Shown here: positions 35,053-38,369 of the stretch, piece after piece
Numbering within the stretch: position 1 is the stretch's first letter
Layout: the number at the start of each line of letters is the position of its first letter
Source: Candidatus Cloacimonadota bacterium
Lineage (GTDB): Bacteria > Cloacimonadota > Cloacimonadia > Cloacimonadales > TCS61
DNA length: 64,000 bases
Direction of reading: 5' to 3'
NCBI GenBank assembly: GCA_030445745.1
Contig: JASUTE010000005.1
Span: forward strand, 62,001 to 126,000
Made by a program: the position numbers and the translations under genes
The notes under the pieces: generated by a model
What the model was told of the DNA's origin: nothing
The model's input: the letters and a program-made list of their open reading frames with translations, nothing else
Database searches by the model: none

Positions 35053-36027
35053 TTATGCTTCACTTTTATCTCGGCTATATATTACTTTTATTTCCCCTTT
35101 GCCGTTTATGAATTCCATAATTTCTTCTCTTTTCATTTTTAAGGTTCCATCTTTTTTGGTTTGCATTATTATGTCTTTGATTTCTTTATCAACTTGAAAT
35201 TCTAATATCTTTTGAGGTGGTTGAGGAAATTGAATTATCTTAATAGCATTTTCATTATAGATTTCAAATTTTGTGATGAAACAAGAAAAAAAACCATCTA
35301 AATTGTAGTAGTTTACATAAAGTTCATACGTTTTATTATCTATCAATTTTATGCTATAATTTAATATTTTTTTTATATGAATATCTGGTATTTTCGAAGG
35401 TATTTCACATTCCCGGAAATATAGCTTCATCTTTTCTAAAGAATTTGTTTCTAAGGCATTTTTGAATTTTTTAATAAAGTTAATTAAATTTTCATGCAGT
35501 TTAGCACCAACAATAGCCCTAGAAGCTATCATACCATGTTGTTTGTTATACTCAGCTCGTATTTCCCTTTTTAAGCGATAGAGGCGTTTACGTAAAGTGG
35601 AGTAACTAATCCCCTTTTTTATAGCTACTTGGCGAAGTTTTCTACCTTCGGCAATATATTTCTGCAAAAGTTCTTTATCAGATTCTTTTAAATCAATATT
35701 GTTTTCTTCCAAAACCTCCGAGAGTGTTTTAATCTGTTTATCCTCTAAAAAAGTTTCAGTATAGATGTTCTCTATTTTGTTAAAATCTACCGGGTTATTC
35801 AAAACATCTCTTTTCTGTTTCTTAAGCAGGTCAATAGCAGCATTCTTGGTGACTTTCTGGATCCAGCTTCTTAACTTTTCAGAATCTATCTTAGCAGAGT
35901 TTAAATAGTATTTCATATATACTAATACAAGAACATCTTCTTGGTCTTCTTGATTAGTTAGGTATTTTTTTAGTACTGGGATTGAATATCTCTTTATTTT
36001 GGAATATAATGTTTTATCTGCCTGCAT
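35053..36027 (-). CDS. Sigma-70-family (ECF-like) factor with unknown C-terminal domain, copy 2
   Basis: A 324-residue protein. Residues 1-75 resemble sigma region 2 (NQEDQEDVLVLVYMKYYL, then WIQKVTKNAAIDLLKKQKR). Residues about 115-160 resemble region 4, with the helix-turn-helix LRQVAIKKGISYSTLRKRLYRLK. The last 165 residues are a domain I do not recognise, with KNALETNSLEKMKLYFRECE and DGTLKMKREEIMEF. Some ECF groups carry such an extension in place of an anti-sigma factor. It is 17 bases behind its paralogue. The sigma call rests on motifs only. Confidence 0.75.
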   Translation of the reverse strand: MQADKTLYSKIKRYSIPVLKKYLTNQEDQEDVLVLVYMKYYLNSAKIDSEKLRSWIQKVTKNAAIDLLKKQKRDVLNNPVDFNKIENIYTETFLEDKQIKTLSEVLEENNIDLKESDKELLQKYIAEGRKLRQVAIKKGISYSTLRKRLYRLKREIRAEYNKQHGMIASRAIVGAKLHENLINFIKKFKNALETNSLEKMKLYFRECEIPSKIPDIHIKKILNYSIKLIDNKTYELYVNYYNLDGFFSCFITKFEIYNENAIKIIQFPQPPQKILEFQVDKEIKDIIMQTKKDGTLKMKREEIMEFINGKGEIKVIYSRDKSEA

Positions 36028-36044
36028 AATAATGGATTTTCTGG

Positions 36045-37028
36045 CTATTCTTCACTTTTATCTTGGTTATATATTTCTTTCATTTTACCTTTGCCTTTAA
36101 GGAATTCCATAATTTCTTCTCTTTTCATTTTTAAAGTTCCATCTTTTTGGGTTTGCATTATCGTTTCAATTATTGTCTTATCAAGATTTACTTTTATTAT
36201 TTTTTGTGGTGGTTTGGGAAATTCAACTATTTTTATAGAATTTTCATTATAGATTTCAAAAATCGTGATAAAACTCGAAAAAATTCCTTCTAAATTGAGA
36301 TAATTAACAAATAATTTGTATTTTTTATTATCAAGTAGTTTAATATCATAATCTAAAATTTCTTTTATTTTGATATCTGGAATTTTGTGAGATATTTCAC
36401 ATTCCCGGAAATATAGCTTCATCTTTTCTAAAGAATTTGTTTCTAAAGCATTTTTGAATTTTTTAAGAAAGTTTTGCAGATTTTCATGCAGTTTGGCCCC
36501 AACAATTAGGCGAGAAGCTATAATACCCTGCTGTTTATTGTATTCTGCCCTAATATCTGCTTTTAATCGATATATCCTTTTTTTTATTGCAGCAAAACTG
36601 GTACGGCGCCGATAAGCTAATTTTTTTATTTTAAATCCGGATTTGATATACCTTTCCAATAGCTGGCGCTCTGGTTGCGAAATAATCTTGCTATAATCTT
36701 TCAATATATCATCTAATGACTTAACTTCTTGCTTCTTTTTATCTTTAGTAAGAAAACTTTCGGTGATTATGTTTTCGAGGTCATCAAAATTGAGAGTTTT
36801 TTGGGAAATTTGGTGTTTTTTAGATTTATTATAATCTATACTGGCATTTTTAGCAACTGTGATTATCCAATTATTCAGGTTTTCTTTTTGTAGTTTGTCT
36901 TCATGCAAGTAATATTTAATTAATACTGTTTGAGCCAGGTCTTCTCTATCTTCCTGATTGCTAACATATTTACAAATAGTTCTGTAAGCTAAATTTTTAA
37001 CCTTCTGGTATAATTTTTCTTCCTGCAT
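36045..37028 (-). CDS. Sigma-70-family (ECF-like) factor with unknown C-terminal domain, copy 1
   Basis: A 327-residue tandem paralogue of the next gene. Region-2-like NQEDREDLAQTVLIKYYL is closer to the classic ECF form, with WIITVAKNASIDYNKSKK and region-4-like IKKLAYRRRTSFAAIKKRIYRLK. The N-terminal halves have diverged, but the C-terminal domains share long identical runs, including an almost unchanged 49-bp DNA stretch, so gene conversion or selection has kept that part. It is read from the region that also holds two ECF-like promoter motifs facing the other way. Confidence 0.75.
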   Translation of the reverse strand: MQEEKLYQKVKNLAYRTICKYVSNQEDREDLAQTVLIKYYLHEDKLQKENLNNWIITVAKNASIDYNKSKKHQISQKTLNFDDLENIITESFLTKDKKKQEVKSLDDILKDYSKIISQPERQLLERYIKSGFKIKKLAYRRRTSFAAIKKRIYRLKADIRAEYNKQQGIIASRLIVGAKLHENLQNFLKKFKNALETNSLEKMKLYFRECEISHKIPDIKIKEILDYDIKLLDNKKYKLFVNYLNLEGIFSSFITIFEIYNENSIKIVEFPKPPQKIIKVNLDKTIIETIMQTQKDGTLKMKREEIMEFLKGKGKMKEIYNQDKSEE

Positions 37029-37088
37029 AAAAATATTCCTATATTAAACATTGGCTAATCATTTTAAAAGCAATCACTTAGTCCACTT

Positions 37089-37120
37089 TTCGTCCCCTTT
37101 CTACAAAAATATCGTATATA
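37089..37120 (+). promoter_or_regulatory. ECF-type promoter-like motif, copy A
   Basis: TTCGTCCCC, 15 bp after the last C, then CGTATATA. Identical spacing and boxes occur at 37263-37294. It is followed by AGGAGG at 37129-37134 but no ATG, so a downstream gene may have decayed. The flank AAGCAATCACTTAG also resembles the flank of copy B. Confidence 0.6.
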
Positions 37121-37153
37121 ACAGTAGAAGGAGGAACTAAAGATAAAAAATAG

Positions 37154-37255
37154 ATTGAATTATTATCGTCAATAAATATATCGTGGCTTGGTGATAGAAA
37201 GAGGGAAATTGTGCATTTTAAGGATGCTGTAATTGTAATTATTGTAAGCAGTTAA
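37154..37255 (+). pseudogene. Possible decayed copy of the small secreted-protein gene
   Basis: An open frame without start codon reads INISWLGD and later DAVIVIIVSS before a stop. ISW and a short hydrophobic valine/isoleucine run also occur in the intact protein at 37326. It sits after promoter copy A at a position where a gene would be expected, without a signal peptide. The match is short, so this is a suggestion only. Confidence 0.25.
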
Positions 37256-37262
37256 CTTAGAA

Positions 37263-37294
37263 TTCGTCCCCTTTTTCAGTTTTGTTCGTATATA
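37263..37294 (+). promoter_or_regulatory. ECF-type promoter-like motif, copy B
   Basis: TTCGTCCCC then, after 15 bp, CGTATATA, 32 bp upstream of the ATG of the small secreted protein and ahead of TAGGAGG. The two-box layout with GTCCCC as -35 and CGTATATA as -10 is unlike the TTGACA/TATAAT sites elsewhere in this window and resembles ECF sigma promoters. Confidence 0.65.
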
Positions 37295-37325
37295 TAAGTG
37301 AAAGCAAAAATATTAGGAGGCTACG

Positions 37326-37523
37326 ATGAAAAAGTTTTTATTAGTTATTTTTTTAATCAGTGTATTGACCAGTGGATTATTTGCAGTTGAATCGAATATA
37401 GATACAAGTAAATTGGAAGAGATTAGCTGGGAAGAAGTAGGAGATAATGCTGTTATATATGAAGTTGGTGATGGTTATTGTATCGTTGTAATAGGTGATG
37501 ATGTTTACATTGTTTTCGAATAG
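37326..37523 (+). CDS. Small acidic secreted protein
   Basis: A 65-residue protein. Residues 1-20 are a signal peptide (KKFLLVIFLISVLTSGLFA), and the mature part is acidic (LEEISWEEVGD, then VIGDDVYIVFE) with a single Cys. It has a textbook TAGGAGG ribosome-binding site and the promoter motif copy B. No homologue is known to me. It is likely a product controlled by one of the adjacent sigma-like factors. Confidence 0.7.
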   Translation: MKKFLLVIFLISVLTSGLFAVESNIDTSKLEEISWEEVGDNAVIYEVGDGYCIVVIGDDVYIVFE

Positions 37524-37533
37524 AGGATAAATC

Positions 37534-37758
37534 ATGAAAGTTCGCGATGAGATCCGGAAAATGCTCTACGAAATGGAATTGGAGAATCCTGGAATATTGG
37601 ATAGATATTCGGAAAAGGATATAAACAGGATACCGGAGATAAAAGCGATACTTGAACAGAAAAAATTCAAAAAAATAATAAATTTCAAAGTAGTTAGAAA
37701 AAATAAAAATGAACAATTGGAGTCTCTTAAGTCAATAAAGTTTAATTTTTTAATATAA
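37534..37758 (+). CDS. Small hypothetical protein
   Basis: A 74-residue basic, helical-looking protein (MKVRDEIRKMLYEMELENPG, later IKAILEQKKFKKIINFKV). It starts ten bases after the secreted protein gene with AGAGGA as ribosome-binding site and ends before a strong terminator, so it shares that transcript. I do not recognise it. The charge pattern could fit a nucleic-acid or partner-binding role, but no function is claimed. Confidence 0.6.
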   Translation: MKVRDEIRKMLYEMELENPGILDRYSEKDINRIPEIKAILEQKKFKKIINFKVVRKNKNEQLESLKSIKFNFLI

Positions 37759-37794
37759 TTTCTCTCTAAATTCCTCTCTAAAACTAATAAAGTG

Positions 37795-37828
37795 GCCACT
37801 CTTGCCCGCAGAGTGGCTCTTTTTTTTT
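37795..37828 (+). terminator. Terminator at right end of the sigma cassette
   Basis: GCCACTCT and AGAGTGGC enclose a seven-base loop, followed by TCTTTTTTTTT. The stem is the same as at 34870-34890 but faces the other way. Confidence 0.85.
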
Positions 37829-38292: not shown

Positions 38293-38369
38293 TGGTGTGC
38301 CCGAGAGGATTCGAACCCCCGACACCCAGAACCGGAATCTGGTGCTCTATCCAGCTGAGCTACGGGCAC
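38293..38369 (-). tRNA. tRNA-Arg (anticodon CCG)
   Basis: On the minus strand GTGCCCG at the 5' end pairs with CGGGCAC at the 3' end, followed by A and an encoded CCA. The D arm (AGCTCAGCTGGATAGAGC), the anticodon stem CCAGA/TCTGG around TTCCGGT (anticodon CCG, reading CGG) and the T arm with GGTTCGAATCC are all complete. It is convergent with queF. Confidence 0.96.

Follow-up and report, generated by a model that had tools for sequence, protein, structure and literature searches.

Predicted tandem ECF promoters beside paired sigma factor genes and a small exported protein in Candidatus Cloacimonadota

The stretch of Candidatus Cloacimonadota DNA analysed here (64,000 nucleotides; the window) carries two copies of a bipartite motif, TTCGTCCCC-N15-CGTATATA, at 37089-37120 and 37263-37294, both on the plus strand, between divergent operons that encode two sigma factors on the minus strand and a 65-residue exported protein on the plus strand. 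This layout raises the question of whether the copies are promoters and, if so, which sigma factor reads them and what is expressed from them. Among open-licence papers, we found no description of an alternative sigma factor from Cloacimonadota, or of the promoter of one. In this uncultured phylum, the sigma family, its promoter code, the exported partner, and the targets are readable from sequence alone. An earlier note on this DNA had described the two motif copies, the two sigma-like genes, and the small exported ORF; all lie where it placed them, and in both copies CGTCCCC and CGTATATA are separated by exactly 15 bp. The features of the locus are as follows.

35053-36027, minus strand: ECF sigma factor B, 324 aa, a tandem paralogue 58% identical to A
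36045-37028, minus strand: ECF sigma factor A, 327 aa (Sigma70_r2 E 3.6e-10; TIGR02937 at cut-off; fold matches), with sigma2 and sigma4 in residues 3-161 and a predicted NTF2/SnoaL-like C-terminal domain at about 172-275
37054-37081, no strand assigned: conserved block GCTAATCATTTTAAAAGCAATCACTTAG 5' of P1, common to the relative G023 by alignment
37089-37120, plus strand: predicted promoter P1, -35 CGTCCCC at 37091-37097, 15 bp spacer, -10 CGTATATA at 37113-37120
37263-37294, plus strand: predicted promoter P2, -35 CGTCCCC at 37265-37271, 15 bp spacer, -10 CGTATATA at 37287-37294
37315-37320, plus strand: ribosome binding site AGGAGG of the small exported gene
37326-37523, plus strand: small exported protein, 65 aa, a signal peptide and a short region ending YCIVVIGDDVYIVFE
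37534-37758, plus strand: ORF of 74 aa, 11 bp 3' of the small exported gene, with no known domain
37794-37828, plus strand: terminator-like stem-loop and T run (intrinsic type) closing the small operon

The motif pair and the small operon

The TTCGTCCCC-N15-CGTATATA pattern gave no match in dinucleotide-preserving shuffles of the window. The genome-wide search that the earlier note had called for was performed with patterns and profiles on the window's genome (G000; 2.04 Mb, 99% complete). GTCCCC-N12-18-CGTA matched three times, with a spacer of 15 bp in 3/3, and the third strong copy (G000:C33:189982-190008, minus strand) lies directly 5' of an exported, lipoprotein-like gene (MLKKINLLCLLCIIFIIVVSCESK...). 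The three strong sites scored 38.8 bits (P2; E 1.4e-9 in its own genome), 37.7 bits, and 32.2 bits (P1; E 1.8e-7 in its own genome) with the R1 promoter profile, compared to 22 bits for the next candidate, scores that arise partly by construction since both window copies and the C33 copy are inside the profile. We regard as doubtful the 22-bit site C15:55505, 5' of an endonuclease III-like gene, as well as C27:23884, where GTCCCC with a shorter spacer lies within a TldD-like gene; exact-pattern matches in G021, G024, G033, and G023:C498 stand outside a T-rich context and look like chance. The intergenic region that separates the small gene from sigma A gave no sigma-70-like site on its plus strand. 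The conserved block at 37054-37081 may contain the sigma operon's own promoter.

The 74 aa ORF is probably co-transcribed with the small exported gene. Members of the small-protein family consist of a signal peptide, called by a crude rule, and then a short tail like GxEYxIxxxxxxYxIVxIDGxxYIIxx; comparison with Pfam gave no consistent family match. The next domain-bearing gene on this side is QueF-like, and a tRNA-Arg (CCG) lies 3' of it on the minus strand (38293-38369). An Rfam search returned tRNA only.

The earlier note had read the two copies and their matching flanks as a tandem duplication of about 175 bp. The 5' flanks are indeed alike (AAGCAATCACTTAG and AAGCAGTTAACTTAG), but the rest of the 174 bp unit does not share this likeness. 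At a lag of 174, identity drops to 15-45% past the first promoter, and the gapped flank match between P1 and P2 is weak, being reached by 37 of 1000 shuffles, so a recent event is unsupported. P1 and P2 each have a separate orthologue in G023, the 5' flank of P1 matching the first-promoter flank and the 3' leader of P2 the second-promoter leader (0/1000 shuffles in both cases), and we rejected a recent duplication on the grounds of this orthology and the lag-174 divergence. Because P1 and P2 each match their own counterpart and match each other weakly, the tandem pair is, judging from these alignments, old, predating the split of the window genus and the G023 genus, with both copies retained. 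The same data make it hardly credible that the pair is a neutral repeat, that is, a recent duplication of non-functional sequence: two similar copies do lie 174 bp apart, but they have diverged outside the boxes while boxes and spacing stayed identical, their separate orthology and conservation across genera contradict neutrality, and a third copy precedes an exported gene. We also rejected the idea that a second, decayed small gene lies between P1 and P2, since 454 of 500 shuffles did as well as the local alignment.

Sigma factors A and B

Sigma B starts 17 bp after sigma A, and the two genes are probably in one operon. In sigma A, Pfam recognized region 2 alone, and Pfam Sigma70_r4_2 alone was weak (2 of 18 homologues). 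TIGR02937, the ECF superfamily model of NCBI, spans residues 3-161 of sigma A and matches all 18 homologues, and a profile of the 18 matched SigW, SigL, and SigH in the PDB over both sigma2 and sigma4. The protein has the domain content of ECF (sigma-70 group 4) factors, sigma2 and sigma4 without sigma1.1 or sigma3, and the motif has the bipartite form of ECF promoters, with a 15-17 bp spacer and a GTC-type -10 element (CGTCCCC-N15-CGTA in the window; TGTC or AGTC as the -10 in relatives). G000 encodes at least two further, more distant ECF-like proteins (C33:14739 and C33:80905).

The C-terminal ~160 residues matched no Pfam family. In AlphaFold2 models of medium confidence (mean pLDDT 67-69; 76-87 in the C-terminal domain core), this domain is predicted to form two helices followed by a four-stranded antiparallel sheet. 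Nearly all of its best 50 structural matches were NTF2-like (top Z 9.4, rmsd 3.0 A, 98 residues); Foldseek with the whole sigma model gave no match at E < 0.001. Because of the VIA-align Z scores of 8-9 and the nearly uniform top 50, the C-terminal domain is predicted to be NTF2/SnoaL-like by fold, without a sequence match, a fold characteristic of the SnoaL/NTF2-extended ECF sigmas (ECF41, ECF56, ECF205, ECF294, and ECF295).

ECF41 factors recognize the promoter TGTCACA-N16+/-1-CGTC (Wecke et al. 2012, PMC3426412); the C-terminal extension regulates their activity, and their target is the adjacent gene (PMC3426412; review PMC8999054). The Cloacimonadota sigma resembles them in its predicted NTF2/SnoaL-like C-terminal fold without a recognizable anti-sigma gene, in having the adjacent gene as main predicted target, and in a bipartite promoter with a GTCACA-type -35, a 16 +/- 1 spacer, and a CGTC-type -10. 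Several differences stand against these likenesses. First, the WLPEP motif of the sigma2-sigma4 linker occurred in 0 of 44 Cloacimonadota homologues. Second, the ECF41 neighbour is a carboxymuconolactone decarboxylase, oxidoreductase, or epimerase (COE), whereas the Cloacimonadota neighbour is a small exported protein, in the window one without a Pfam domain. Third, the -35 TGTCACA is replaced by CGTCCCC in the window and GTCACA in a sister clade. Lastly, the regulon of the Cloacimonadota relatives is predicted to reach several exported proteins. Since the WLPEP motif and the COE neighbour are absent, membership in ECF41 fails, and we treat the family as a variant. ECF56 SigG1 of Streptomyces tsukubaensis (PDB 7qh5, PMC7730460) likewise combines a two-domain ECF core with a SnoaL-like C-terminal domain. 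Its structure matched the window sigma over 167 residues with Z 9.3 and an rmsd of 21 A, which limits the likeness to one domain at a time. SigG1 differs in being actinobacterial and in having the partner RsfG, and no close sequence similarity between it and the window sigma was found.

Conservation and promoter variants in relatives

Of 124 genomes from the phylum Ca. Cloacimonadota, 43 gave sigma homologues in a profile search. Named matches, at five loci from a search with a six-row alignment, belong to Ca. Cloacimonadota, including Cloacimonas sp. SDB and Tenebribacter mawsonii, with one record labelled Armatimonadota. The sigma gene lies beside a small exported protein of the 37326-37523 family at 32 of 39 loci in the window's family and at 11 of 15 loci in other families. 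The pairs are mostly divergent and some are co-directional, the pairing thus outlasting changes in layout. A gene for a CheY-like response regulator (ILITEDERIIAEDLKLTLQ...) lies 3' of the small gene at L013, L020, L022, L027, L032, L033, L035, and L036. In G034 (L049 2962-3321 / L038 1552-1911), the sigma gene is missing an internal segment and resembles a pseudogene; its small exported neighbour is kept in altered form.

Promoter-like sites recur between the paired genes. In G023 (twice), G038, and G003, TTTCGTCCC-N15/16 followed by CGTT, AGTC, or TGTC lies between the sigma gene and the small gene, and L229, from another family, has GCGTCCCC-N15-AGTC, i.e., CGTCCCC-N15-AGTC. A second sigma group has GAGTGGTGNCGTCACAMTTT...GGATATGTATATAG in place of the GTCCCC type. 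The GTCACA profile (R2) gave 54 matches at E < 1e-5, spread over 23 of 40 genomes; G000 had none, and the reversed GTCACA pattern gave far fewer matches. Across 142 kb of sigma flanks, confident R1 or R2 matches occurred only 5' of a sigma-linked operon and were directed away from the sigma gene, a placement shared by R2 loci outside the training set (L030, L031, L040, L161, and L173). In a third group (L014, L016, L018, and L039), the -35 box has drifted and the spacing and -10 alone are recognizable. An inverted repeat, CGCTCCT...AGGAGCG, surrounds the presumed -10 in L014 (2234-2334), L016, L018, and L038, with a diverged -35 and the same spacing.

In a tree of 37 sigmas, those with GTCACA promoters form one clade (100/100), and the three promoter labels require just the minimum of 2 changes, reached by 0 of 200 shuffles, a test that is partly circular for class 1, which is defined by the adjacent motif. 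GTCCCC sigmas fall into two groups, with those of L017 and L019 apart from the window and G023 sigmas, so that GTCCCC could be the ancestral state or could have two origins. As far as these sequences go, the promoter variants track the sigma tree, CGTCCCC in some clades and GTCACA in one, and the clade-specific boxes offer a natural series in which sigma4 and -35 sequences change together.

This co-variation bears on which factor would read the motif. Instead of the adjacent pair, a different ECF sigma encoded elsewhere in the genome could read a genuine ECF promoter, and the more distant ECF-like proteins of G000 would be candidates, but the type of promoter goes with the clade to which the adjacent sigma belongs. 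In G003, moreover, class 1 and class 2 sites each adjoin a sigma of matching type, and strong R1/R2 sites occurred in 12 of 15 sigma-bearing compared to 0 of 5 sigma-less family genomes at least 90% complete (Fisher p 0.004), a comparison that is partly circular because training sites were drawn from sigma loci. We judge a distant sigma very unlikely to be the reader. In eight genomes, six of them at most 86% complete and two (G023 and G032) more complete, class 2 sites were confident but a class 2 sigma was not detected.

The TTCGTCCCC boxes would have a different role if they were operators for a separate DNA-binding regulator and the transcript came from a housekeeping promoter. The fixed 15-16 bp spacing to the CGTA/GTC -10 element, the fixed orientation, the closeness of the motif to the small gene's start codon, a layout equal to that of ECF41 promoters (PMC3426412), the -35 type that tracks the sigma tree, and the plus strand free of sigma-70-like sites all argue against operators. 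Operators are commonly tandem, a conserved CTTAG element 5' of P1 could serve a second regulator, and a response-regulator gene lies near several relatives' loci; weighing both sides, we find this explanation unlikely.

Predicted targets and proposed circuit

Away from the sigma genes, 29 of 34 sites (32 R2 sites, one G023 R1 site, and the C33 site) precede ORFs for exported proteins, compared to 10 of 65 ordinary gene starts (~15%) and 7% of random positions; the nominal p of 3e-19 overstates this enrichment because sites within one genome are not fully independent. Exported targets were called by a crude rule that required an ORF to start within 420 nt, to have a ribosome binding site, and to encode a signal-peptide-like N-terminus. 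Many are surface proteins with FG-GAP or beta-helix repeats. When ten targets were compared with TIGR04183 (type IX sorting), eight passed the cut-off and two were just under it, and one further target is a homologue of C25 (gingipain-family) peptidases. With 70 matches in G000 and from 112 to at least 150 in three relatives, proteins bearing a sorting domain are numerous in these genomes, suggesting that the sigma would control a small subset. Strong target operons in G000 number only two. The C33 target has no recognized domain, and the 65 aa protein is too short for a sorting domain. The predicted regulon suggests how Cloacimonadota regulate a subset of their surface proteins.

An ECF sigma tied to type IX secretion is also found in Porphyromonas gingivalis, where SigP controls secretion machinery genes, acting with a two-component system (PorXY), and PorA, an exported protein, influences the pathway (PMC4800418, PMC7712824). 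In Cloacimonadota, by comparison, the sigma would act on genes for exported proteins, of which some bear type IX sorting domains, and it has a C-terminal domain of its own.

From the motif, spacing, gene layout, conservation, co-variation with the sigma clade, and exported targets, each of which is there to be read in the genomes, we conclude that P1 and P2 are very probably tandem promoters read by polymerase with the adjacent ECF sigma factor(s) and driving the tiny exported protein. The earlier note had proposed such a promoter, ending in a small secreted protein, and comparative evidence supports it: TIGR02937 matches every homologue in the set of 18, promoter, sigma, and small gene are conserved together across genera and families, the -35 variant changes in step with the sigma tree, exported proteins also lie 3' of sites found elsewhere, and the plus strand has no sigma-70-like site.

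In the proposed mechanism, sigma A and/or B would guide RNA polymerase to P1 and P2, with sigma4 contacting CGTCCCC at -35 and sigma2 contacting CGTA(TATA) at -10, 15 bp apart. Transcription would run rightwards from predicted start points, P2 giving a leader of ~25-30 nt with AGGAGG, then the 65 aa exported protein, the 74 aa ORF, and the terminator; the same sigma would drive the lipoprotein-like gene at G000:C33. No anti-sigma partner of the window sigma was recognizable, and the NTF2/SnoaL-like C-terminal domain would most likely gate sigma activity, as in ECF41. In relatives, the equivalent module of sigma, promoter, and small protein would also control exported surface proteins. More speculatively, the small exported protein could be a signal partner as well as a target, reporting the state of the envelope or of secretion and tuning the sigma via its NTF2-like domain, and the whole could be a phylum-specific circuit of an exported 60-90 aa protein and a sigma controlling surface proteins; we consider this doubtful, if conceivable.

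Several sites in relatives have unusual surroundings. After class 2 promoters, exported-protein leaders of 200-320 nt at L059, L078, L075, L077, and L081 share an element like GTAAGAATAAGTTCATTTAG, for which there was no Rfam match. A class 1 promoter-like site lies directly 5' of a transposase-like ORF at a contig end (L149 777-1169, G023:C165). At G010:C346:8413-8754 (L155, L187), four tandem class 2 copies lie within 350 bp, 5' of an exported protein.
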